A stretch of 64,000 nt of DNA from Burkholderia anthina. Its GTDB lineage: Bacteria > Pseudomonadota > Gammaproteobacteria > Burkholderiales > Burkholderiaceae. The stretch's first letter is position 1. Every line of letters begins with the position of its first letter. The notes below the pieces were generated by a model. The model ran no database searches, was not told where the DNA came from, and was given only the letters and a program-made list of their open reading frames with translations. A program made the position numbers and the translations under genes. The DNA lies in NCBI RefSeq assembly GCF_001547525.1, contig NZ_LNJP01000003.1, forward strand, positions 1,798,001 through 1,862,000, given 5' to 3'. Shown one piece after another: positions 43,624 to 55,283 of this stretch.

Positions 43624-44573
43624 GCGGGCTTCCTCGCGTGCGAGCGGATCGCGTCGAGCGTGATGCGGCGAGGGCCGTGTGCGTGACGGTTGCCGTCGGC
43701 CGTATCGTCGACGGGCAGCGCATCGACACCGCGCCACAACAATTCGGACACCGCATCGCGCAGCGTGCGCGTCGCGGCGATCGGTTCGCCGTCGGCATGA
43801 CCGGCTTCGGCAACGGCGTCGATCGGCGTCAGCGCGAGCAGGCGCAGCGGCCGATCGACGCCCGCGACGAGCTGTTCGACGACACCGGCCGCCGGCTTGC
43901 CGAGAATCTCGGCCGGCGTCGCGACCTGCAGCAGCCGGCCGCCGTCCATCACCGCGATCGTGTCGCCGAGCTTCAGCGCTTCCTCGATATCGTGCGTGAC
44001 GATCACGACCGTGATGCCGAGGCGGCGCTGCAGCGCGAACAGGTCGTCCTGCGCCTTGTTGCGGATGATCGGATCGAGCGCGCCGAACGGTTCGTCCATC
44101 AGCAGCATCGCGGGCTCGGCGGCGAGTGCGCGCGCCACGCCGACGCGTTGCTGCTGGCCGCCCGACAGTTCGTGCGGCAGCTTGCCTGCGAACTCGGCCG
44201 GCGCGAGATGGAACAGATCGAGCAGTTCGTTCACGCGCGCGTCGATGCGCTCGGCCGGCCAGCCGAGCAGGCGCGGCACGGTCGCGATGTTGCGCGCGAC
44301 GCTCCAGTGCGGAAACAGCCCGTGCCCCTGGATCGCGTAGCCGATGCCGCGCCGCAACTGTTCGGGCGCGACGCTTGCCGTATCGACGCCGTCGATGCGG
44401 ATCGTGCCGCTGGTCGGCGCGATCAGCCGGTTGATCATGCGCAGGAGCGTCGACTTGCCGCTGCCCGATGCGCCGACGAGCGCGGTGATCGTGCCGCGCT
44501 GCACCGTCAGCGATACGTCGTCGACGGCGACCACTTCGCCGAAGCGTTTGCCGACCCGTTCCATCTCGATCAT
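43620..44573 (-). CDS. yehX: Osmoprotectant ABC transporter ATP-binding protein, YehX-like
   Basis: 317 residues. Walker A VGASGSGKST, Q-loop AIQGHGLFPHWSV, signature LSGGQQQRVG, Walker B MLLMDEPFGALD and switch VTHDIEEAL. The Q-loop AIQ..GLFPH is the form found in OpuCA/OsmV/YehX. The C-terminal 80 residues are a shortened CBS-like region. Overlaps both neighbours by 4 nt (ATGA), so the whole operon is coupled. Confidence 0.9.
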   Translation of the reverse strand: MIEMERVGKRFGEVVAVDDVSLTVQRGTITALVGASGSGKSTLLRMINRLIAPTSGTIRIDGVDTASVAPEQLRRGIGYAIQGHGLFPHWSVARNIATVPRLLGWPAERIDARVNELLDLFHLAPAEFAGKLPHELSGGQQQRVGVARALAAEPAMLLMDEPFGALDPIIRNKAQDDLFALQRRLGITVVIVTHDIEEALKLGDTIAVMDGGRLLQVATPAEILGKPAAGVVEQLVAGVDRPLRLLALTPIDAVAEAGHADGEPIAATRTLRDAVSELLWRGVDALPVDDTADGNRHAHGPRRITLDAIRSHARKPA

Positions 44574-45748
44574 TCTGCACGTCCCTTCGCGAGCGACGTC
44601 GCGGCTTCGAACACGACGGCGGCCGCCAGTGCGAGCGCGATCGTCGGGATCGCGCCGAGCAACACGAGATCGGCGGCCGATTGCCCGATCCCCTGGAAGA
44701 TGAAGGTGCCGAATCCGCCGCCGCCGATCAGCGCGGCCACCGCGGTCAGGCCGATGTTCTGCACGAGCACGATGCGCACGCCGCTCAGGATCACCGGCAG
44801 CGCGAGCACGAGATCGACGCGCAGCAGCCGCTGCATACGTGTCATGCCCATCGCGCGTGCCGCTTCGGTCACGTGCGGCGGCACCTGTTCGAGCCCGACC
44901 ACGACGCTCGATGCGATCGGCAGCAGCGAGTAGAGGAACAGCGCGAGCACGGCCGGCGCGACGCCGATGCCGCGGATGCCGAGCGCGGCCGCGAGCGGCA
45001 CGTGCGCGGCGAGCAGGCCGAGCGGCGCCATCATCAGCCCGTACATCGCGATGCTGGGGATCGTCTGCACGACATTGAGCACGGGCATCGCGATCGTGCG
45101 CACCGTCGCGATGCGCGTGCAGGCGATGCCGAGCGGCACGCCCGCGACGAGCGCGGCGGCGACCGAGCCGCCGGCGAGCGACACGTGACGGATCGCTTCG
45201 CGCCAGAAATCGTCGCTGCGCACCGCGTATTCGCGCATCACCGAGAGGCCGTCCCACCAGCCGCTCGCGAGCGGCATCGAAACCGCCGCGATCGCGACGG
45301 CGAGCGCGGCGAGCCGCCGCCACGGGCCGAACGCGAGGCGCGCGAGCGCATCGGCGATGAGCACCGCCCACGCGAACAGCAGCAGCCAGACGCCGGCGTC
45401 GGGCGACACGCGGGCCAGCATGTCGTCGGGCGCGACGACGTGCGCCGCGGCCGCGCCGATCGCGTACGCGAGCGTCGCGAGCCCCGCGCAGCCGGCCGCG
45501 AGCCGCCACGCGGGACGGCTCGCCGTCATCACCCACAGCGCGCCGACGGTCCACAGCGCGGCGAGCGCGGCGCCCTGCATGGCGGGCAGCGCGGCGAACA
45601 CCGACAGCCCGGTGCCGGCCGCGATCCGGTTCGGTCGCAGCACCGCGAACGACAGGCCGAACACCGCGACGAGCGTCAGTACACCGATCAGGACACCGAC
45701 CTTGTCGAGCGTGATGCGCCGCGCGGACGCCGCCGCGCGGCCCGTCAT
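44570..45748 (-). CDS. yehY: Osmoprotectant ABC transporter large permease, YehY-like
   Basis: 392 residues, close to the 385 of E. coli YehY. The first half contributes four or five extra transmembrane helices (LIGVLTLVAVFGLSFAVL, ALAALWTVGALWVM, WLLLFAWAVLIADALARL) before the conserved permease core: VSLAGGSVAAALVAGVPLGI, NVVQTIPSIAMYGLMMAPLG, and the coupling loop EAARAMGMTRMQRLLRVDLV. The long N-terminal half distinguishes YehY from OpuC-type permeases. Confidence 0.88.
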   Translation of the reverse strand: MTGRAAASARRITLDKVGVLIGVLTLVAVFGLSFAVLRPNRIAAGTGLSVFAALPAMQGAALAALWTVGALWVMTASRPAWRLAAGCAGLATLAYAIGAAAAHVVAPDDMLARVSPDAGVWLLLFAWAVLIADALARLAFGPWRRLAALAVAIAAVSMPLASGWWDGLSVMREYAVRSDDFWREAIRHVSLAGGSVAAALVAGVPLGIACTRIATVRTIAMPVLNVVQTIPSIAMYGLMMAPLGLLAAHVPLAAALGIRGIGVAPAVLALFLYSLLPIASSVVVGLEQVPPHVTEAARAMGMTRMQRLLRVDLVLALPVILSGVRIVLVQNIGLTAVAALIGGGGFGTFIFQGIGQSAADLVLLGAIPTIALALAAAVVFEAATSLAKGRAE

Positions 45749-46668
45749 TTCACGAAACCCTTCGCTTTCAGATAGCTTTTCGCGACGCCGGCGGCCGGCT
45801 CGCCGTTGAGCTGGATGCGGGCGTTCAGCGATTGCAGCGTCTTCAGGTCGAGGCTCGCGAACACGGGCTTCAGCAAGTCGGCGATCTGCGGATGCGCTTT
45901 CAGCGCGGCTTCTCGGATCACCGGCGCCGGCGCGTAGACGGGCTGCACGTGCTTGTCGTCGTCGAGCACCGCGAGGCCGCTCGATGCGATGCCGCCGTCG
46001 GTGCCGTAGACCATCGCGGCGTTCACGCCGTCGGTCTGGTTCGCGGCGGCCTTGATCGTCGCGGCCGTGTCGCCGCCGGACAGCACGACGAGCTGCTCGG
46101 GCTTCAGCTTGAAGCCGTACGCCTTCTCGAACGACGGCAGCGCCGACGCGCTGTTCACGAACTCGGCCGAGGCCGCGAGCTTCACCTTGCCGCCGCCGGT
46201 CACCCACTTGCCGAAATCGGAGAAGGTCTTCAGGTGCTGCGACTGCGCGACGGGCGCGAGCAGCGCGACGCCCCACGTGTTGTTCGCGGGCGCCGGTGCG
46301 AGCCACACGAGATGGTTCGCCGCGTAGTCGAGCTTCCTGGCGGTGTCGTAGCCTTGGCTCGCGTTCTTCCATACCCGGTCGTCGGCCTTGTTGAAGAAGA
46401 ACGCGGCGTTGCCCGTGTATTCGGGGTAGATGTCGATCTCGCCGCTCGTGAGCGCCTTGCGCACGATCGGCGTCGTGCCGAGCGCGATCTTTTCGGTGAC
46501 GGGAATGCCGTGGGCCTTCAGCACCTGTGAAATGAGGTTGCCGAGCAGGTTGCCTTCGGTGTCGATCTTCGACGACACCACGACGGGCGTGTCGGCATGC
46601 GCGCCGGACGCGACGATCGCGGCGGCGAACGCGAGGCCCAGGATCCGGGCGGGCAGGGCGAGCTTCAT
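45745..46668 (-). CDS. osmF: Osmoprotectant-binding periplasmic protein, OsmF/YehZ-like
   Basis: 307 residues, signal peptide MKLALPARILGLAFAAAIVA with cleavage near AHA-DT. OpuAC-type domain: VVVSSKIDTEGNLLGNLISQ, IALGTTPIVRKALTSGEIDI, YPEYTGNAAFFF, and DGVNAAMVYGTDGGIASSGL. Gene order binding protein - long permease - ATPase - short permease equals E. coli yehZYXW, a low-affinity betaine system under stress control there. Ligand not certain. Divergent from the 2-hydroxyacid dehydrogenase gene. Confidence 0.9.
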   Translation of the reverse strand: MKLALPARILGLAFAAAIVASGAHADTPVVVSSKIDTEGNLLGNLISQVLKAHGIPVTEKIALGTTPIVRKALTSGEIDIYPEYTGNAAFFFNKADDRVWKNASQGYDTARKLDYAANHLVWLAPAPANNTWGVALLAPVAQSQHLKTFSDFGKWVTGGGKVKLAASAEFVNSASALPSFEKAYGFKLKPEQLVVLSGGDTAATIKAAANQTDGVNAAMVYGTDGGIASSGLAVLDDDKHVQPVYAPAPVIREAALKAHPQIADLLKPVFASLDLKTLQSLNARIQLNGEPAAGVAKSYLKAKGFVK

Positions 46669-46834
46669 CGGGGCCAATCTCCAGGACGGGGGCGTACGCC
46701 GAAAGTTACTTGACTGAGCCGGCTTTGGCAAACCGCGTGCGGCCGCGTGTCCACAGAAGGTGTGGGGATAACCCGCATCCATTGTGCGGGCTTGTTACAC
46801 TGAAATTCACTCCCGCCTGCGGACATTTGCTGAC

Positions 46835-47764
46835 ATGAAGCCCGAGCTGCTGGTCCTCATCGCGCTGCGCGGCGACGCGCATCGCGAGATCGCCGCGTCG
46901 TTCGACGTGCGTTACGCGCCGACTCCCGATGCGCGCGAACGCGCGATCGCCGAGCACGGCAGCACGATCCGCGCGGTGCTGACCAACGGCAGCACGGGGT
47001 TGAGCGCCGCGGAGATCGACCGGCTGCCGCGCGTGACGTTCGTCAGCGCGCTCGGCGCGGGCTACGAGCACATCGACGTCGTGCATGCGAAGGCGCGCGG
47101 CATCACGGTGGTGACGGGCGCCGGCACCAACGACGATTGCGTCGCCGATCACGCGTTCGCGCTGCTGCTGGCGGCGGTGCGCAACGTCGTGCAGCTCGAT
47201 GCGAAAACCCGCGCGGGCGTGTGGCGCGACGGGCTGTCGATGCCGCCGAACGTGTCGGGCAAGAAGCTCGGCATCGTCGGGCTAGGCAAGATCGGCGAGA
47301 AGTGCGCGCGTCGCGCGGCCGGCTTCGACATCGAGATCGGTTATCACAACCGCTCGGAGAAACCGGTGCCGTACCGCTATTTCGACCGGGTCGACGCACT
47401 CGCGCAGTGGGCCGATTTCCTGATCGTCGCGACGCCGGGCGGTGCAGGCACGCGGCATCTGATCGATCGCGCGGTGCTCGACGCGCTCGGCCCGGGCGGT
47501 TTCCTCGTGAACGTGTCGCGCGGCAGCGTTGTCGATACCGCTGCTTTGGCGGACGCGCTGCGCGAACGGCGCATCGCGGGCGCGGGGCTCGACGTGTACG
47601 AAGGCGAACCGGCGCCGCCGCGTGCGCTGACCGATCTCGACAGCGTCGTGCTCACGCCGCACATGGGCGGCTGGTCGCCCGAGGCGCTCGATCGTTCGGT
47701 GCGGCAGTTTCTCGACAACGCGGCGCGGCATTTCGCAGGGCAGCCGGTATTGACGCCGGTGTAG
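46835..47764 (+). CDS. D-2-hydroxyacid dehydrogenase (NAD(P)-dependent)
   Basis: 309 residues from ATG 46835. Catalytic domain strings FVSALGAGYEHIDVVHAKAR and GITVVTGAGTNDDCVADHAF; nucleotide fold KLGIVGLGKIGEKCARRAAG, followed by HNRSEKP, where Asn-Arg-Ser suggests NADP(H); catalytic Arg in LVNVSRGSVVDT, Glu in YEGEPAPP and His in LTPHMGGWSPEA. Probably a hydroxypyruvate or glyoxylate reductase (GhrB-like); the exact substrate cannot be read. Confidence 0.85.
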   Translation: MKPELLVLIALRGDAHREIAASFDVRYAPTPDARERAIAEHGSTIRAVLTNGSTGLSAAEIDRLPRVTFVSALGAGYEHIDVVHAKARGITVVTGAGTNDDCVADHAFALLLAAVRNVVQLDAKTRAGVWRDGLSMPPNVSGKKLGIVGLGKIGEKCARRAAGFDIEIGYHNRSEKPVPYRYFDRVDALAQWADFLIVATPGGAGTRHLIDRAVLDALGPGGFLVNVSRGSVVDTAALADALRERRIAGAGLDVYEGEPAPPRALTDLDSVVLTPHMGGWSPEALDRSVRQFLDNAARHFAGQPVLTPV

Positions 47765-47884
47765 GCGGCGATCGGTGTTGCCGGTGCGAAACGCGGTCGC
47801 GCCGGTCGCGAGACGGCGTGGTTCGGACCGCTTGCACGCCTTGCAGGCCCTCGTGAACCGAACCCGGCTCCGTCATCGATCGAA

Positions 47885-48988
47885 TCAGCTTGCGGGGCGG
47901 CCGCCCGCCAGATCCGCGGCCGCCACTTCATCGGTGGACGGTAGCGGCCCAATGGTCACCTCGCCCGAAATGAACCGTTTTCCTTTGAAATCCCTGCCGT
48001 GGTAACGCGTGCTGATCGCGTGAAATTCGGCATTGCCGGACGCCAGATGCTCGAGTTCGGTCACGTAGGCGCGCACATCCGCGTCGTCTCCGAGCGGGCC
48101 GGCGAGGACGCGGTCGCGCGCGGCGATCAGGTTGCGTTCGTTCTCGGCAACCAGCGTGGCCAGCTTGTTCAGCGCGTCCTGGAGCGTCAGGCCGTCGCGG
48201 TACATCAGCAGCCAGACGGAATTGACCGAATCGGCGATATGAATCTCTTTCCGGAATGAATACGGGTCGTTGACCAGCGTGATCGAATCGATGGCGGCCG
48301 TTCTCATTTCCGCCAGCGACCGGTCGGCGGCCAGGTGGTCGGTCATGTCCACGTCGATCGCGTATTCCGTCATGATGGCTGCCCATTCCCCGTAATTGTC
48401 GATGCGCCGCATCTCCAGATAGGCGTCGAACGTGAGCTCGTCCATCTTCAAGGCCAACGGATCCGTCTGCCTGACGATCAAGGTACGCAGCGATTCCTCC
48501 AGCCGTTGCCAGACGCGGGGCTTCGACGCCAACTGTGCCTTGACGGGCAGCAGCCCCTCGTACAGCAACTGCGCGATCGGGGCGCTGTCCGGCGGGCGCA
48601 CGCCGGCGATCGCGTCGAAGTAATGCTGCCGCAACGTCGCGCGCCTGTGCGCCTGGTCCAGCATGTCGGGGTTGGTGATGGTGTCGTCGATCAGCGTGGT
48701 GATGCTCATCATCCGTTCCAGATCGTAGATCCGGTCGTCTCGCGTGTGCGGGTAGCACAGGCCGCCGAATGACGGCATGCTTTGCGCCAGATAATGTTCG
48801 ACCGCCTTCTGGCTGCCGTAGTACGCGAGGATGTACGGGCTGTCGGTGAGCGCGATTCGGCGTTCCGCCTCGTCGTGGCGCGGATGCCACATGGGCTTCA
48901 ATTGCAGATGGAAGTCCGGGTGGAAGATTTTTTCCCCCGGCTTCGGCAGGCCAGGGAGATCGCGAACGAAGTTGGGAATCTCTTTCAT
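47885..48988 (-). CDS. Class I terpene synthase (cyclase)
   Basis: 367 residues, all alpha, no signal. Class I features: Asp-rich motif TTLIDDTITNPD (D101, D102), the upstream Arg pair R194/R195 exactly 46 residues before the NSE triad (pyrophosphate sensor), the triad itself in LVNDPYSFRKE (N240, S244, E248), and a C-terminal ISTRYHGRDF (RY pair). The third acid usual in DDxxD/E is missing (T105, N106). The methyltransferase gene is 44 bp upstream on the same strand, so the substrate is probably a C-methylated prenyl diphosphate, as for 2-methylisoborneol or sodorifen-type synthases. The product cannot be predicted. Confidence 0.87.
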   Translation of the reverse strand: MKEIPNFVRDLPGLPKPGEKIFHPDFHLQLKPMWHPRHDEAERRIALTDSPYILAYYGSQKAVEHYLAQSMPSFGGLCYPHTRDDRIYDLERMMSITTLIDDTITNPDMLDQAHRRATLRQHYFDAIAGVRPPDSAPIAQLLYEGLLPVKAQLASKPRVWQRLEESLRTLIVRQTDPLALKMDELTFDAYLEMRRIDNYGEWAAIMTEYAIDVDMTDHLAADRSLAEMRTAAIDSITLVNDPYSFRKEIHIADSVNSVWLLMYRDGLTLQDALNKLATLVAENERNLIAARDRVLAGPLGDDADVRAYVTELEHLASGNAEFHAISTRYHGRDFKGKRFISGEVTIGPLPSTDEVAAADLAGGRPAS

Positions 48989-49032
48989 GGCGGATTCTCG
49001 GGCTCAAGGTCGGGGGCCGGAAAGCGCGGCCT

Positions 49033-49995
49033 TCAGCGATCGCGCCTGAGCACGAAGCTGTAGATGGAAACCTGGCGCTTCACGATGGCGACGGCCAGGC
49101 TCTCGCACATCACGCGGAGTTCTTCCAGCGCGCCGACCGCACCGCGCGGAAAATGACGCTCGATGTTCTCCTGCACGCTCAGCAGCCAGCGCGTCGCGTC
49201 CATCCGGTCCGGCAGGATTCTCATGTCGTGGACGACAAAGCCGCTCTGCTCGAACACCTGGCGCAGGTACGCGGGCGTCTTGCGATACTTGCATGCCAGC
49301 CTGTCGACCAGATCGGGCGTATCGGACCGGTATTCCTGCAGGTCGACGTTATACAGGTTGTCCGAAACGATGACCGTTCCGTTCGCGGACAGCCGTTGCC
49401 GCAATTTGGCCATCACGATTTCGAAAAGGTCGTAGGGGAAGTGGGAAATCACCCCGCGCATGATCGCAAGGTCGTAGGGCTGGCCGAAATCCGGCAGCAA
49501 ATCGATATCGAGCGCATTGCACCGGAACAGGTTGATGCGGTCCGACAAGGCTCGCGCGGCATTGACTTCGGCGCAGTATTCGAGCTGGCGTTCGCTGATG
49601 TTGATGCCGTCCAGGCGATGACAGTCGGGAAACCGCTCGGACAGATCCCGCAGCACCGTTCCCCAGCCGCACCCGATATCGAGTATCCGGTCGACGGGCT
49701 GGCGGCCGGGCCTGTCCAGGCCGGCGAGCTCGAGTTGCCGCTCGAAATACCGGAGGCCGGATTCGTCGAGGCCGATCGGCTCCGGCGATCGGGCCGGGTC
49801 ATAGATACCGAACTGGAACCAGAGGCGATCGCCGATCACGCTGCTCCAGCTTTCCGGGTCGTCCTGGTAAGCCAGTGCGACCCGCGACTCGTAATCGTTT
49901 CGTTCCCGGCCCCGTATCGAAGCGAACGGCTTGACGGTCCGGCCATTCAATGGCGATCCCGATCCGACGGCGGTGTCCGTGCCGATATTGCTCAT
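49033..49995 (-). CDS. SAM-dependent methyltransferase paired with the terpene synthase (probable prenyl diphosphate C-methyltransferase)
   Basis: 320 residues from ATG 49995, which has GGAG 7 nt upstream; two earlier ATGs are too close to it or lack a site. Class I methyltransferase: motif [21 protein letters not shown] (residues 101-120), [31 protein letters not shown], and [20 protein letters not shown]. The N-terminal [20 protein letters not shown] and the fold resemble small-molecule and prenyl diphosphate methyltransferases. Its coupling to a terpene synthase recalls GPP methyltransferase-MIB synthase and the FPP methyltransferase of sodorifen producers. Which diphosphate it uses is unknown. 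Cytosolic. Confidence 0.82.
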
Positions 49996-50272
49996 AGCCA
50001 TTCTCCGAGGTGGGGGTACGACGTCATGCACGGGATAGCCGGACTTCCGTGTCCGGCGAGCGCGGTTGCTACTGAATTACGGTTGCATGATCGAAGCGGA
50101 CGACATTCCCTTTCCTCGACCAGGACACAAAATCAGCGGCACCCGATTCAAAAAAGACGAGCGATTACCGTGGGCCGCGACTCGGCGGCCGCCGGTCGGG
50201 CTGGAAACGGCATACAGGCAAAGGGAATCCCCGAGGGCAACCGGTTACGAATTTCCGGATTATTGAATTCCC

Positions 50273-50300
50273 AATCTAGTCGATCGGGTTTCGATGTCAA
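50273..50300 (-). promoter_or_regulatory. Sigma70-like promoter for the terpene operon
   Basis: Minus strand: TTGACA (plus 50295-50300), 16-bp spacer, TAGATT (plus 50273-50278). The -35 is a perfect consensus and the -10 matches four of six. Orientation and position fit the methyltransferase gene. Confidence 0.6.
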
Positions 50301-50356
50301 GCGACAGAATGCTGTTTCATTTTCCGATTTAAAGAATCGCTTGATTCACGAAATGC

Positions 50357-50370
50357 GGAATGATCATTCC
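50357..50370. promoter_or_regulatory. Perfect 14-bp palindrome GGAATGATCATTCC upstream of the terpene promoter
   Basis: Lies 57 bp upstream of the -35 element on the minus strand, an activator-like position. No matching regulator gene is adjacent. Confidence 0.4.
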
Positions 50371-50421
50371 GACGGGGCGGCCTTTTTAAAGAAACAGAAA
50401 ATCGAGCCGGACGATGGGAAA

Positions 50422-50457
50422 CGATCCGGGATGCGGAGGTACCGGCATCCCGGATCG
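50422..50457 (-). terminator. Terminator of the peptidase gene
   Basis: Perfect 13-bp stem CGATCCGGGATGC (50422-50434) / GCATCCCGGATCG (50445-50457) with a 10-nt loop, about 30 bp past the stop of the minus-strand peptidase; on the minus strand a short TTT and then a T-rich stretch follow. Confidence 0.65.
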
Positions 50458-50487
50458 TGTCGAAGGGGTACCGCGTGCTGCCGCGGC

Positions 50488-52446
50488 TCAGGAAGCCGCG
50501 AGCGGCACCGTCACCGACGTGCCGGCCGGATCGAGCGTCAGCCCCGTGCCCGGCGTCGGCCGAAGCGTCGCCTCATAGTCGCTGGAGAGGACCACGAGCC
50601 CCAGCCGGTGGCCGGCTTCCAGCTTGTAGTCGCGCGGCATGAACGTCAGCTTCAGGTCGTACGGCATGCCGGGCAGCACGGGCTGCGACACCCACTCGGA
50701 CAGCCGGTTGCGCGGGTCGGTCCATGCGCGCGTGACGATCGTCGCCGTGCCGTCCGGCGCGCGGTCGACCAGCAGCGCCGTCACGTTCGCCACGCCCGTG
50801 AAGGTCAGCCTGACGCGCGCGGTCGCCGTGCCGGACAGGCGTGCCGCGGCCGTCAGCGGGGCCGTCTCGAAGCGGCTGCGGTTTTCGCCGGTCGCCGTGT
50901 TCGCCAGCGTCAGCGCGGGAATGCGCGCATCGTCGGTGAAGCGCGCGAGCGGGCCGCCGGTCGGCTGCCGCAGCAGCGTGCCGGTGGTCGCGCCGTCGCC
51001 GCCGGCGAAGTACGTGACCGGCGTGGCGCGACGCGCGGCCCAGTCGGCCTCCTTCAGCAGCGAGCCGTCGGCCTGAGCGATCACCGCGCGCGGATCCTGC
51101 TCGACGCCGTTGTCGTAGCCGATCAGGTAGCGCGTGAACCAGCGGTTCACCTCGGCGGTCCACGCATCGGCCATCCCCGGCACGCGGGTCGGATCGGTGT
51201 GCTTCAGTCGATGCAGCCACAGCTGGGTCGGCACGCTCTGGCGCCGCATCGCCAGATACCACGACGTCGACTGGTCGACGCGCACGTTGTCGTCGGTCAG
51301 CCCCTGCGCGACGAGCGCCGGCGCGACCGCGAACGCGGTCGGAATGTCGCGCGCGGCCCAGAACGGCGAATAGTCGCCGGTCTTGCGGTCTTCCTGCTGC
51401 AGCGCTTCGTCGATCAGGTGCGTGCAGCGCTCCGGATGCGCGTTCGTCAGCAGCGCCTTGATGTACACGTCGACATCCTCGCCCTGATAGCCTTCCGGCG
51501 CGCGCACGAGGCCGCCCGAGCGGTAGTAGCCGTACATGTTCGACAGTCCGGCGACCGGCACGATCGCGTCGAGCCCGCGCGTGCGCAGGCTCGCGACCAT
51601 CTTCGGCAGCGTGCCGTCGTACGACACGCCGTACATGCCGACGTGGCCGGTCGACCAGTTCGCGACGACCGTCTTGCCGTTCGCGTCCTTCGCGGTCGCG
51701 TCGCGGCCGAGCCAGCGGATCACCGACGCCATCGCGACCGATTCGTCGCGCGTGAGGATCGTCGGGCAGCCGTCCGAGCCGGCGGTGCCGAGCGAATCCG
51801 CATAGACGATCGTGAAGCCGCGCGGCACGAAGTAGCTCTCGATCCACGAGCGGCCGGCGGCCGCCGCCTCGACTTGCTGCAGCATCCGGGTTTGCGGTGC
51901 GGCGGCCAGGATGCGCGTGGACGCCGATGCCGCGGCGCCGGCGGTCGCGGCCGGATGCGGCGTGCCGTCGAGTTCGACGTCGACGTCGTGGTTGGGGCTG
52001 TCGGCGAGCCCCGCGTAATACGGGCTTGCGAGCACGATGACCGGCGTGCGCGCGCCGTTCGCGGTCTCGGCCGGCCGCACGATCCGCACGTGGATGCGGT
52101 CGCGCGTGCCGTCGCCGTCGGAATCGACCGGCGTGTCGACCCACGCGTTCTCTTCGATCGTGCCGCCGGACAGCGACGGCTGCACCTGGCCGTTGCTGAT
52201 CACCGGCTTGTAGCGTCCGCCGCTCGCCGGATTCGCGTACGGCACGCCGGACGGCGAAAAGCGCGACGCGAGCGATTGCGTATTGGACTGATCGGCCGCG
52301 GCGGCGGCCCCCTCCTGTTGGCCCTGTGCGAGCGCTGACACGCCCGCCACGCTGCCGCCGTCGTCGCCGCCGCACGCGGCGAGCGTCGCGGCCGCCACGA
52401 GCGCGGGCAGCCATGCGCGCCGTACTTCGGTTCGATGAATGTTCAT
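50488..52446 (-). CDS. Lipoprotein Xaa-Pro dipeptidyl-peptidase / CocE-NonD family hydrolase
   Basis: 652 residues. Signal peptide with lipobox LAAC (C25), so a lipoprotein. S15 peptidase domain: IVLASPYYAGLADSP, VPRGFTIVYADSLGTAGSDG, nucleophile elbow in GMYGVSYDGTLPKMVA, and later LTDDNVRVDQSTSWY around the acid and LHRLKHTDPTRVP around the His. A DSDGDGTRD loop before the domain resembles a calcium site common in this family. The last 170 residues form the jelly-roll domain (ESEW-like LSEWVSQPVLPGMPYDLKLT). Probably hydrolyses proline-containing peptides or esters at the envelope. GAGG lies 8 nt before the ATG. Confidence 0.87.
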   Translation of the reverse strand: MNIHRTEVRRAWLPALVAAATLAACGGDDGGSVAGVSALAQGQQEGAAAAADQSNTQSLASRFSPSGVPYANPASGGRYKPVISNGQVQPSLSGGTIEENAWVDTPVDSDGDGTRDRIHVRIVRPAETANGARTPVIVLASPYYAGLADSPNHDVDVELDGTPHPAATAGAAASASTRILAAAPQTRMLQQVEAAAAGRSWIESYFVPRGFTIVYADSLGTAGSDGCPTILTRDESVAMASVIRWLGRDATAKDANGKTVVANWSTGHVGMYGVSYDGTLPKMVASLRTRGLDAIVPVAGLSNMYGYYRSGGLVRAPEGYQGEDVDVYIKALLTNAHPERCTHLIDEALQQEDRKTGDYSPFWAARDIPTAFAVAPALVAQGLTDDNVRVDQSTSWYLAMRRQSVPTQLWLHRLKHTDPTRVPGMADAWTAEVNRWFTRYLIGYDNGVEQDPRAVIAQADGSLLKEADWAARRATPVTYFAGGDGATTGTLLRQPTGGPLARFTDDARIPALTLANTATGENRSRFETAPLTAAARLSGTATARVRLTFTGVANVTALLVDRAPDGTATIVTRAWTDPRNRLSEWVSQPVLPGMPYDLKLTFMPRDYKLEAGHRLGLVVLSSDYEATLRPTPGTGLTLDPAGTSVTVPLAAS

Positions 52447-52999
52447 TGCAGCGACCTCGTCTCTTGTGATTGTGTGGAACCGGTCGGCTCGCGATATGCC
52501 CCCTGCGGCCTGGCCGGGTACTGCATCGGATGAAGCGGAACTGCACCATCAAAAACGGCGGGCGAGACGGAAGGGGATCTCGCCCGATGCCGGCGTGCGT
52601 CAGGCGGCGCGCATCCGGCTGGCGTCGAGGCGAGCGCATCGCCCCGAGCGGAATGCGTCAGTGCGGCGGTTCGATGCGAAAGCAGGAGTGCGAATCAAAC
52701 AGGGGCATGCCCGAGCTCCCTTCAGGTTTCGGATGAAACGGAACGGCACGATGCGAAGAGGCGGAAATGTTGCGAACGGCGGTGCTGCAACGGCAGGAAA
52801 GCGCGACGCGAGCCGGCACGCTGTTGGCCGGGATTGCTTTCCGGAAGCTTGCGCAAAAGTTATCTCAGTGAAATGCGCGTGTCAAACTTTTTTAGCTTAA
52901 GTCAAACAAAGTTTCGGTATGCGTGCGGCCGGCGACCTCAACTTCCATGGAATCCGTCCGTAAACAGCAAAAAACAGGCTGAAAACGAGAGAGAGGGCA
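52447..52999. other. Divergent intergenic region; no gene supported
   Basis: About 550 bp between the peptidase and the hypothetical gene. The stretch 52850-52915 is AT-rich and holds a direct repeat GTCAAAC at 52881 and 52901 (20 bp apart) and an inverted pair AAACTTT (52884-52890) / AAAGTTT (52908-52914). On the minus strand TTGACA (plus 52880-52885) could be a -35 with a poor -10 (TAACTT) 17 bp on. A 153-codon plus-strand ORF here (52439-52900) has no coding character. Confidence 0.5.
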
Positions 53000-53812
53000 A
53001 TGACGATTCCAGTCACGGCGGCGGGCGACCTGTCGCTCGCGCAAATGGCGCAGGCGGTGCTCGACGGGCGCCAGACATCGGACACGACCGCGTCCGGCGC
53101 GTCGCCAGACGAGCCGATCGACGTTCGGGCAGTCGATCCGCAGGCGATGCAGGCGGCGCTGGCGAAACAGTTGTCGATGGTGAGCGACCTGACGATGAAG
53201 CTGCGCGGCGTCACCGACGCGCTCGCGACGAGCCTGCAGGACATCGTCGCGAAGCGCCCCGATCTGGCCGACGCGCCATTCGACTTCGTGACCGACGACG
53301 GCCGGATCAAGATCGTATCGAAGACGCTGACCGACGGCGATCGCGCGTGGGTCGAATCGACGCTGAACGCGAACGCCGGCCTCGTGCTCGCGACCCGCGA
53401 TTTTCACGAGCAGGCGGTCGATATCGCCGCGCAACGCGCGGCCGTGCGCGGCGACACGTTCGCGGACAGCGAGCGCGCGGTGGCCAGTCAGGGCGCCGAT
53501 GCGCGCTTTCATTTCATGAGCCTGCTCAACCGGTCGGTCGCGGACAATCCGCCGCCCGTGCCGCCGGGCGGACACTTCACCACGCAGGACGGCACGACGC
53601 TGCAGATCGAGCCGTCGGCCGGCACCGCGCGCGGCACGCTCGCGCTGCTGAATACCGCGCGCCAGTTGTCGTCGGGCGCGGCGATCTTCGTCGACTCATC
53701 CGGCAAGAAGTCCTACGGGATGCGCGCGGAACTCGTCAACGTCGGCTTCGACGTGCTCGCCGCCTACGCGCCGGGCGGAGGCAACAGCGTCGGTTTCCAC
53801 GAGATCGCGTAA
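53000..53812 (+). CDS. Hypothetical protein, 270 residues
   Basis: No family recognised. GAGAGAGGG lies just before ATG 53000. The sequence begins MTIPVTAAGDLSLAQMAQAV and has no signal peptide or membrane segment. A helical first half (AALAKQLSMVSDLTMKLRGV, EQAVDIAAQRAAVRG) is followed by a Pro/Gly-rich turn (NPPPVPPGG) and a strand-rich second half ending FDVLAAYAPGGGNSVGFHEI. The N-terminal Ser/Thr/Asp-rich 45 residues could be a disordered export signal, but no secretion genes are nearby. Apparently monocistronic; convergent with the chemoreceptor gene. Confidence 0.65.
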   Translation: MTIPVTAAGDLSLAQMAQAVLDGRQTSDTTASGASPDEPIDVRAVDPQAMQAALAKQLSMVSDLTMKLRGVTDALATSLQDIVAKRPDLADAPFDFVTDDGRIKIVSKTLTDGDRAWVESTLNANAGLVLATRDFHEQAVDIAAQRAAVRGDTFADSERAVASQGADARFHFMSLLNRSVADNPPPVPPGGHFTTQDGTTLQIEPSAGTARGTLALLNTARQLSSGAAIFVDSSGKKSYGMRAELVNVGFDVLAAYAPGGGNSVGFHEIA

Positions 53813-53876
53813 CGCCGCGCCAATCGAGCCGCTCGCGGCTACTCGTCGCGCAGCGCGTCGGCCCGCCCGCGCCGGT

Positions 53877-55283
53877 TCAGACGCTGTAGCCGATCCGCAG
53901 GACGCCCCATGGCCGTCCGCCGACGACGATCGGCGCGGACACGTCCTTCATCAGCGCGAACTGGCCGTTGCCCATGTCGCGCCGATAGGTCTGCAACAGG
54001 AACGGCTTGTCGTGCGACACGGACATGCGCGCCGTCCGGTCCGTGTAGATCCGGCGATTCCGTGAGTTCGCCGCGTTCCAGGCGGCGTCCGCGCGCTGCG
54101 GCAGCGAGAACTTCCGGTTGTGGGTCGGCAGGTAGCACTGCCGGTCGAAACTCGCGCAGTAGACGATCCGTTCGTCGAGATCGAGCACCGGTTCCTGGAT
54201 GGCCGGCAGCACGCGATCGGTGAACGCCGTGAAGCGCGTCATGAACTGCTGCGGGTCGGTACCCGGAATCGGTTCGTAGTGCGTGTCGAAGAGCGCGTCG
54301 AGCGCGATATCGCCGCGGCCGACCGCGTCCTCGAAGAGCTTGCTGATCGCGGCGGCCGTGCTCCGCGCGGTGTCGATCAGGCGCGTGTCGGGCGATTCGA
54401 TGCCGGTCGCGGCCGTGAGCTCGATCAGCGTTTCGGAAACGGAGAGCAGGTTGCCGAGCCGGTCCTTGGCCTGCGAGAAATTGTCGGCCGAGTTCTCGAC
54501 GCCGGACGCCATCTCGCCCACCTGCTCGTCGAGACGGTGGCACTGCGCCTCGATCTCGTCCGTCAGCGATGCGATCTGTTCGGCCTCGCCCGCGAGCTCG
54601 GTGATCGCGTGCCCGGTTGCGTGCACGACCTCGCCGATCGTGCGGGTGCCCTCGCGCACGCGGTGCGCGCGGGCGGCGTTGTCGGTGCCTTCCGCGAGCA
54701 GGTGCTCGGTCTGCTCGGCGAGCCGCGCGAGCGTCGTCTCGATCTGGGCCGTGGCCTGCCCGGTCTTCGCGGACAGGTTCTTGACCTCGGCCGCGACGAC
54801 CGCGAAGCTGCGGCCGGATTCGCCGGCGCGCGCGGCCTCGATCGCGGCGTTCAGCGCGAGCAGGTGAGTCTGTCGGGCGATCACCGAGATCTCCTCGGAG
54901 ACGGCCCGCACGTGATCGAGCGCGTCGCGCAGCGCGCCCATCTGGTCGCTGATCGTGGTGACGCCCTCGACGAGGCCGTGAATGTCGGCGAGCGACGCCT
55001 CGATCGTCTGCTGCGACTGTCGGACCGCGTTCGATGCGTTGGCGCTGACGTCGCGCACCTGCTGCGCGGCCTCGGCGATCCGGTGGTTGCCGCGCAGCGT
55101 GAGGGCGGCCGATTCGCGCAGCGTGTGGCAGACCTCCGCCTGCCGCGCGACGCGGGCCGCGACTTCCTCGACGTGGCCCGATACGTCGCAGATCTCGATG
55201 CCGAGCCGGCCTGCCTGCTCGGCGATGTCGCCGACGAGCGCGCGCGACGAACGGCGGCCGCGGCCGATTCCGAAGAAGTTCAC
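53877..55283 (-). CDS. Soluble methyl-accepting chemotaxis protein with C-terminal sensor domain
   Basis: 468 residues from a GTG at 55283 (AAGGAG 10 nt upstream). No transmembrane helix. Residues about 20-320 form the coiled-coil signalling domain, with the hairpin tip IARQTHLLALNAAIEAARAG around residues 140-160 (His replaces the common Asn after QT). The C-terminal 130 residues are a sensor domain: PVLDLDERIVYCASFDRQCY, LQTYRRDMGNGQFALMKDVS and GGRPWGVLRIGYSV, a Cache/PAS-like pattern seen at the C-terminus of cytosolic receptors. The order signalling-then-sensor is the reverse of classical MCPs. Likely senses a cytoplasmic cue; no che genes are adjacent. Confidence 0.87.
   Translation of the reverse strand: MNFFGIGRGRRSSRALVGDIAEQAGRLGIEICDVSGHVEEVAARVARQAEVCHTLRESAALTLRGNHRIAEAAQQVRDVSANASNAVRQSQQTIEASLADIHGLVEGVTTISDQMGALRDALDHVRAVSEEISVIARQTHLLALNAAIEAARAGESGRSFAVVAAEVKNLSAKTGQATAQIETTLARLAEQTEHLLAEGTDNAARAHRVREGTRTIGEVVHATGHAITELAGEAEQIASLTDEIEAQCHRLDEQVGEMASGVENSADNFSQAKDRLGNLLSVSETLIELTAATGIESPDTRLIDTARSTAAAISKLFEDAVGRGDIALDALFDTHYEPIPGTDPQQFMTRFTAFTDRVLPAIQEPVLDLDERIVYCASFDRQCYLPTHNRKFSLPQRADAAWNAANSRNRRIYTDRTARMSVSHDKPFLLQTYRRDMGNGQFALMKDVSAPIVVGGRPWGVLRIGYSV

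Follow-up and report, generated by a model that had tools for sequence, protein, structure and literature searches.

A Burkholderia anthina gene pair predicted to make a C16 homosesquiterpene, with a third pocket type among sodorifen-type farnesyl diphosphate methyltransferases

The 64,000-nucleotide stretch of Burkholderia anthina DNA analyzed here (the window; NCBI RefSeq assembly GCF_001547525.1, contig NZ_LNJP01000003.1, positions 1,798,001 to 1,862,000) carries a putative S-adenosylmethionine (SAM) methyltransferase gene lying 44 bp upstream of a gene for a class I terpene synthase on one strand. An earlier note on this DNA had described the pair and proposed that it makes a C-methylated, non-canonical terpene, and its coordinates are borne out. 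The pair is predicted to form a minimal operon of two genes whose product is a C16 homosesquiterpene, probably a volatile one, and we regard this reading, with the intermediate proposed below, as probable. The features, in window positions, are as follows.

49033..49995, minus strand: predicted farnesyl diphosphate (FPP) C-methyltransferase of a third pocket type (Ala267/Met296/Leu300, corresponding to SodC 273/302/306), from homology, the pocket table and clade support of 100/99.
47885..48988, minus strand: class I terpene synthase, the putative dedicated partner (PF19086; NSE triad at 240/244/248; Arg194; RY pair at 328-329; DDTITN).
48989..49032, minus strand: intergenic gap of 44 bp, consistent with a single transcript on the basis of gene adjacency.
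50273..50300, minus strand: promoter-like TTGACA-16-TAGATT upstream of the methyltransferase gene, from a scan and conservation in two orthologous Burkholderia loci.

Both genes are intact, the methyltransferase running from ATG 49995 to a stop at 49033 (320 amino acids) and the synthase from 48988 to 47885 (367 amino acids). Longer methyltransferase starts are mechanically possible, for example GTG 50031, and ATG 49995 is favored because GGAG stands 7 nt 5′ of it. The genes are also adjacent on one strand in three other members of the clade described below (G041, G011 and G969).

Pfam places the methyltransferase in general methyltransferase families only. Neither protein reaches any NCBIfam cut-off, in keeping with the earlier remark that there was no obvious housekeeping match, and the names of other methyltransferases score far below theirs, including the geranyl diphosphate (GPP) methyltransferase NF041943 (26.4 bits, cut-off 400). 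Among solved structures the best matches are 9sls_A (E 6.6e-122), 9sm0 (9.7e-118) and 24uw, VbFPPMT (9.1e-111); the closest relatives are the FPP methyltransferases 9sls, 9sm0, 24ux, 9sm1 and 24uw, 56-60% identical to the window enzyme, with 9sm3, a methyltransferase acting on gamma-presodorifenyl diphosphate (gamma-PSPP), farther away. The AlphaFold2 (AF2) model has a mean predicted local distance difference test score (pLDDT) of 82.3, and Foldseek ranks 9sm1 first, the Pseudomonas chlororaphis FPP methyltransferase with S-adenosylhomocysteine and FPP (template modeling score 0.89/0.95, root-mean-square deviation 1.6, 60% identity). The catalytic features are present, with GxGxG at G108/G110/G112 and the Tyr39/His191 dyad of SodC as Y43 and H185. 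By sequence and fold the protein is thus classed as a sodorifen-type FPP C-methyltransferase of predicted activity. The comparison with characterized enzymes that the earlier note had called for places it in trees with PgrC and VbFPPMT, not with the gamma-PSPP methyltransferases, and the clustering with ubiquinone or lipid methylation that would have told against the idea did not occur, the nearest relatives being crystallized FPP methyltransferases. This kinship supports the non-canonical, C16 terpene; of the GPP and FPP models offered for it, FPP is the expected substrate and GPP is not.

The synthase matches Terpene_syn_C_2 (PF19086, E 7.4e-22), and its best-scoring solved relative by sequence is VenA (E 5.2e-32). 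Its AF2 model (pLDDT 89.8) has a class I fold nearest, by Foldseek, to AriE (9lpb) and VenA. The N240/S244/E248 triad and the arginine pair that the earlier note had placed 46 residues upstream are there (Arg194, 46 before N240, and Arg195), together with R328-Y329, giving the triad, diphosphate-sensor arginine, RY pair and fold of a class I enzyme; N240, S244, E248, R194, R328 and Y329 are invariant in 13 aligned synthases. The aspartate motif, DDTITN, has D101-D102 and lacks the usual third acid, which is not strictly required since the active synthase PgrE likewise has none (DDMPLG; PMC13022886). The SodD-type motifs (DDXXXDE, no NSE) are not those of the window synthase, which shares 13-18% identity with four DDxxxDE synthases of other loci, and the closest synthases in other loci also adjoin FPP methyltransferases. 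Judged by sequence, then, the methyltransferase is SodC-like while the synthase is of another lineage than SodD. The likeness to the sodorifen system lies in the way of working, not in a SodD-type synthase; what the earlier comparison with sodorifen got right was a SodC-type methyltransferase, and neither the SodC pocket nor SodD-like metal-binding motifs came with it.

The sites of SodC mutagenesis (PMC7862628, PMC9440906) were mapped onto the window enzyme by constant offsets, +4 before the SAM motif and -6 from the SAM motif on, with SodC residues taken from these papers and residue-type agreement on both sides of the variable sites backing the offsets. Sixteen of the 20 compared sites are kept (Y43, W50, F60, F62, Y65, G108, G110, G112, H185, N213, V230, D231, L233, C235, D266 and E291). 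The departures are at E42, H45, V273 and W306, the first two being replaced in every row of the 20-site table, and L302, compared separately in the pocket table, is also replaced. Three of the SodC positions that steer product choice, V273, L302 and W306, thereby become Ala267, Met296 and Leu300; two others, Q57 and F58, are kept as Q61 and F62. The window enzyme accordingly lacks the SodC pocket expected for alpha-presodorifenyl diphosphate (alpha-PSPP), all three positions being changed, and it lacks the Val273 plus Met302 of gamma-PSPP makers, sharing Met302 and having Ala at 273.

The pocket table holds 27 rows, 21 of the FPP-methyltransferase type and 6 of the gamma-PSPP-methyltransferase type. 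At SodC 273/302/306 the residues are A/M/L in all four clade rows (window, G041, G011, G969), V/L/W in all 12 SodC-pocket rows (one of them the PDB row 9sls, which duplicates genome row G042 over the printed stretch), and V/M/(V or L) in all five gamma-type rows, which include VbFPPMT, P. chlororaphis FPPMT and PgrC; Ala at 273 occurs in none of these five. Ten other compared pocket residues are identical in 21/21 FPP-methyltransferase-type rows. VbFPPMT and P. chlororaphis FPPMT have been reported as makers of gamma-PSPP (PMC10881772), as has PgrC (PMC13022886). The 24ux row was taken as the P. chlororaphis enzyme from agreement of its printed sequence with 9sm1, and PgrC was assigned to L036 from the named strain, P. 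grimontii DSM 17515, plus gene order. The SodC-like residues of the 12 V/L/W rows suggest that these are alpha-type.

Work on SodC shows what a change at 273 can do. In V273A, weylandtenyl diphosphate (WPP) replaces presodorifenyl diphosphate as the main product, with WPP products making up 80.3% in yeast and 75.7% in vitro for SpSodMT V273A (PMC9440906). V273N, V273S and V273T also gave mainly WPP, and L302 variants gave other building blocks (PMC9440906). Wild-type SpSodMT with a foreign synthase in yeast yielded less than 1% of WPP-derived alcohol (PMC9440906), so SodC itself is able to form WPP in traces. On these residues the window clade would be nature's own form of a product switch known from SodC, set in another protein background. 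It could be argued instead that the methyltransferase makes ordinary alpha-PSPP and that only the synthase is new, giving a homosesquiterpene of the "Greek philosophers" type: alpha-PSPP is the common product of characterized homologues, even of the fungal NdiMT (PMC12723460), and the window enzyme retains the catalytic dyad along with most of the pocket. Yet the three pocket positions that are variable in FPP-methyltransferase-type rows all depart from SodC, and at one the change is exactly that of the WPP-making mutant; we consider this explanation somewhat unlikely.

In the trees the four A/M/L methyltransferases group together (support 100/99), as do their four synthases (97/99). The methyltransferase clade joins neither the gamma clade nor the V/L/W rows, two of which (G052 and G594a) branch from an unresolved fork; the three Burkholderia members had been placed separately in an earlier methyltransferase tree that included a Streptomyces row. 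The second round of trees dispensed with that row (L146) among the methyltransferases and with the four DDxxxDE sequences among the synthases; the pocket table does not include L146 either. G969, taken as Pseudomonas, carries the pair alone, its methyltransferase 58% and its synthase 74.5% identical to those of the window. These trees bear on a second alternative, in which the methyltransferase makes gamma-PSPP and hands it straight to the synthase, skipping the second methylation step known from the chlororaphen and grimophan routes. Met302 and Leu306 match VbFPPMT, which makes gamma-PSPP a real competitor, and a synthase can act on it, since PgrC and PgrE without PgrD gave sodoritriene by diphosphate loss from gamma-PSPP (PMC13022886). 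Both trees nevertheless set the window clade apart from the gamma clade, none of the five gamma-type rows has Ala273, and no gamma-PSPP methyltransferase was found in the four genomes G000, G041, G011 and G969, where only FPP-type loci matched (42-46% identity). This absence also argues against a C17 product, and we regard direct use of gamma-PSPP as unlikely.

Conservation within the clade is skewed toward the synthase, which is better conserved than the methyltransferase in 6/6 clade pairs (+6 to +14 identity points). The reverse holds in 21/21 pairs of the Rieske-associated clade (-2 to -23 points), and three other pairs gave -20, -30 and +4 (P. grimontii/G531), these pairwise comparisons being non-independent. 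Among the three Burkholderia loci the ratio of nonsynonymous to synonymous substitution rates (dN/dS) is 0.06-0.10 for the synthase and 0.25-0.28 for the methyltransferase (0.19-0.25 minus the first 42 codons), next to 0.12-0.14 for the neighboring peptidase, 0.15-0.23 for the dehydrogenase and 0.09-0.16 for the transporter gene. The pair is not a chance association, as both open reading frames (ORFs) are conserved at one site in two other Burkholderia genomes with low dN/dS. The skew would be explained by a fixed end product and a tolerant first enzyme. It is also what would be expected if the synthase acted on plain FPP to give a canonical sesquiterpene, the methyltransferase being a loosely coupled or fading neighbor, with dN/dS of 0.06-0.10 against 0.19-0.28. 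We judge this very unlikely, as the methyltransferase is intact, under purifying selection in the three Burkholderia loci and retains its catalytic residues, travels with the synthase in Pseudomonas too, and has counterparts in the FPP methyltransferases beside the closest synthases elsewhere.

That the larger pocket serves GPP or geranylgeranyl diphosphate (GGPP) to give C11 or C21 products is most improbable: smaller side chains stand in for two SodC pocket residues (Ala for V273, Leu for W306) and the best solved synthase match by sequence is a diterpene synthase, but VenA is also the best match of the L022 synthase from another such locus and is therefore uninformative on substrate, NF041943 is far below its cut-off, and the genome search gave an FPP synthase (above its NCBIfam cut-off) and an octaprenyl-type synthase (383.8 bits, just under its cut-off of 412) with no third PF00348 gene.

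The preferred reading is thus a pathway in three steps. From homology and the conserved catalytic residues we infer that the methyltransferase would move the SAM methyl to the distal double bond of FPP, whereupon the cation would close a ring with the diphosphate kept, as in SodC. The reshaped pocket would then quench the cation differently, giving a C16 diphosphate other than alpha-PSPP; the best guess is WPP or a close isomer, because V273A alone redirects SodC in this way. Finally, the class I synthase with Mg2+ would ionize this cyclic diphosphate and cyclize it to one conserved C16 product, no second methylation being expected since no gamma-PSPP methyltransferase gene was found. That the pathway leads from FPP to a C16 compound we hold to be very likely, and that the intermediate is something other than alpha-PSPP, reasonably probable; a weylandtenyl-like intermediate in particular is a tentative proposal, to which we give a little less than an even chance.

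Several observations weigh against this pathway. The methyltransferase evolves faster than the synthase, peptidase, dehydrogenase and transporter genes, and the inverted conservation could also reflect a weaker need for it. W306A abolishes SodC activity (PMC7862628), while Leu is native at this position in VbFPPMT. What one substitution does in SodC may not hold for an enzyme whose solved FPP-methyltransferase relatives are 56-60% identical, Met302 and Leu306 are held in common with a gamma-PSPP maker, and the methyltransferases characterized by Duan et al. 2023 are reported to have made mainly presodorifenyl diphosphate (PMC11070974).

Homologues were counted at E <= 1e-40 in genome samples that overlap. 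They occur in 12/65 Burkholderia genomes, 12/398 sampled in the family (all Burkholderia), 3/398 of the phylum sample, 1/369 of the class sample (the window's own), 1/146 in the genus of G594 and 3/398 sampled in the genus of G531, taken as Pseudomonas. Overall 16 different genomes have a homologue, and four have the A/M/L type (three Burkholderia, one Pseudomonas). An alignment-based contig scan matched at least 80 loci, with named relatives under-sampled; among the matches listed there was one close relative, P. grimontii L036 (57%), the other 79 being unused methyltransferases at 21-37%. A single-protein contig scan matched 19 stretches and confirmed no relative.

The pair lies between an S15-type peptidase gene upstream and a convergent D-2-hydroxyacid dehydrogenase gene downstream, with an OsmF-type transporter gene also among its neighbors; no sodA- or sodB-like gene was found by Pfam and NCBIfam among the six window ORFs scanned. 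The peptidase gene is present in 55/65 Burkholderia genomes. In 30 peptidase loci with DNA, the dehydrogenase adjoins without the pair in 22 and the pair intervenes in three (window, G041, G011), five being unjudgeable. Thirteen empty intergenic stretches held no pair remnants, the single tblastn match (E 0.14) being taken as chance. The pair is a variable insert at a fixed site, a pattern that either gain or loss would give. Pair-less loci such as L118 often have about 540 bp between the peptidase and dehydrogenase genes, and in L118, the only one read by eye, this gap seems to hold a small NUDIX-like gene. Elsewhere in the window, a 270-amino-acid protein (53000-53812, plus strand) without a Pfam or NCBIfam match is conserved in position and evolves fast (dN/dS 0.5-0.7 among the three Burkholderia loci).

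Upstream of the methyltransferase gene, the promoter scan gave one site against 0.8 expected by chance. TTGACA, a 16-nt spacer and TAGATT are readable in all three aligned Burkholderia loci, and for this promoter-like sequence conservation is the better argument, the single scan match being itself no more than chance. Rfam gave no match in window 44000-54000, and the terminator scan found none against 2.5 expected by chance.

A second pair occurs in the same genome on a different contig, C2 (928055-930062; L027:4962-8111), its methyltransferase (929166-930062) 55% and its synthase (928055-929059) 46% identical to those of the window. This pair has the V/L/W pocket and an adjoining Rieske-type gene, and plasmid records of Burkholderia cenocepacia and B. 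arboris match parts of the region at 90-92% identity. Earlier work on B. pyrrocinia had already described Sod-like clusters that include a Rieske protein (PMC6366047). L022, L023, L025, L026, L028-L030, L147 and L148 each have one or two Rieske-type oxygenase genes, called by Pfam (Rieske, KshA_C) for the two genes of L022 and by similarity to those for the remaining genes. Their position beside other FPP-methyltransferase loci suggests oxidized products.

Two fusion ORFs join an N-terminal terpene synthase to a C-terminal gamma-PSPP-methyltransferase-like domain (L025:6504-8537, minus strand, in G060, 677 amino acids; L149:5379-7427, plus strand, in G594, 682 amino acids). In both, the methyltransferase domain has Gln for the catalytic His (SodC H191) and Thr for N219, and it may carry out a different methylation or serve as a scaffold only. 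The G060 cluster also encodes, beside a Rieske-type gene, a 521-amino-acid protein (L025:3664-5229, minus strand) with a faint match to the prenyltransferase alpha-alpha toroid (E 6.6e-4, below the Pfam cut-off). On a plasmid of Streptomyces sp. SAT1, a SodC-related methyltransferase gene (L146:6037-6948, plus strand) stands between two adenylation-domain genes, with no terpene synthase in the annotated neighborhood. The protein has Ala/Leu at SodC 273/306 and a very long branch, and perhaps acts on another substrate.

The pathway class itself is already known. Nine further C16 building blocks have been obtained by SodC engineering, and to our knowledge the natural SodC-family methyltransferases with published products make alpha- or gamma-PSPP as their main product. 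The literature found with the word "weylandtenyl" yielded no natural weylandtenyl-based pathway, and no paper was found that combines "presodorifen", in that spelling, with "Burkholderia". The pair could be the first natural pathway in which WPP, or some other C16 diphosphate not yet reported, serves as the main intermediate. It would then be a third natural product branch within the SodC family, its synthases forming a lineage inherited along with it across Burkholderia and Pseudomonas; this we advance as a possibility slightly more doubtful than the weylandtenyl proposal itself. Should a third product be confirmed, three pocket positions would be tied to product choice in nature, a synthase adapted by evolution to the new building block would be at hand, and a new C16 skeleton would be predicted; nature may already make as a main building block one known chiefly from engineering. 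The genome also shows a single bacterium keeping two of these pairs, each on its own large contig and with its own pocket type.

Among known systems, SodC/SodD of Serratia plymuthica shares the order of SAM methyltransferase then terpene synthase, and the SodC dyad and most of its pocket residues recur in the window enzyme. It differs in a V/L/W pocket where the window enzyme has A/M/L, in a SodD with DDXXXDE and no NSE (PMC4872519) where the window synthase has NSE and no third Asp; in addition, no sodA/sodB-like gene stands among the six window ORFs scanned. PcFPPMT, VbFPPMT and PgrC belong to the window enzyme's family (54-60% identity), with Met302 in common and, in VbFPPMT, Leu306; however, they keep Val273, depend on a further methyltransferase for the C17 products of their pathways (chlororaphen, grimophan) and lie outside the window clade. 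Of the same family are 9sls (Burkholderia sp.) and 9sm0 (B. territorii), whose printed stretches lie within the G042 and G060 proteins; these have the V/L/W pocket (9sm0 via G060) and Rieske-type neighbors, G060 having the synthase-methyltransferase fusion as well. SpSodMT(V273A), the engineered weylandtenyl diphosphate synthase (PMC9440906), has Ala at 273 as does the window enzyme, but is a laboratory variant, whereas the window enzyme is natural and also changed at 302 and 306. The C6-FPP methyltransferases of the SvaMT family (prekantenyl diphosphate; PMC12929941, PMC12723460) likewise methylate FPP in nature before cyclization by a partner, and are set apart by the description in those papers as a separate methyltransferase family with a linear diphosphate. 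The 2-methylisoborneol pathway, with its GPP C2-methyltransferase, follows the same logic of methylating a prenyl diphosphate and then cyclizing it, but uses another methyltransferase family, against whose profile the window enzyme scores 26.4 bits of the required 400, and leads to a C11 product.

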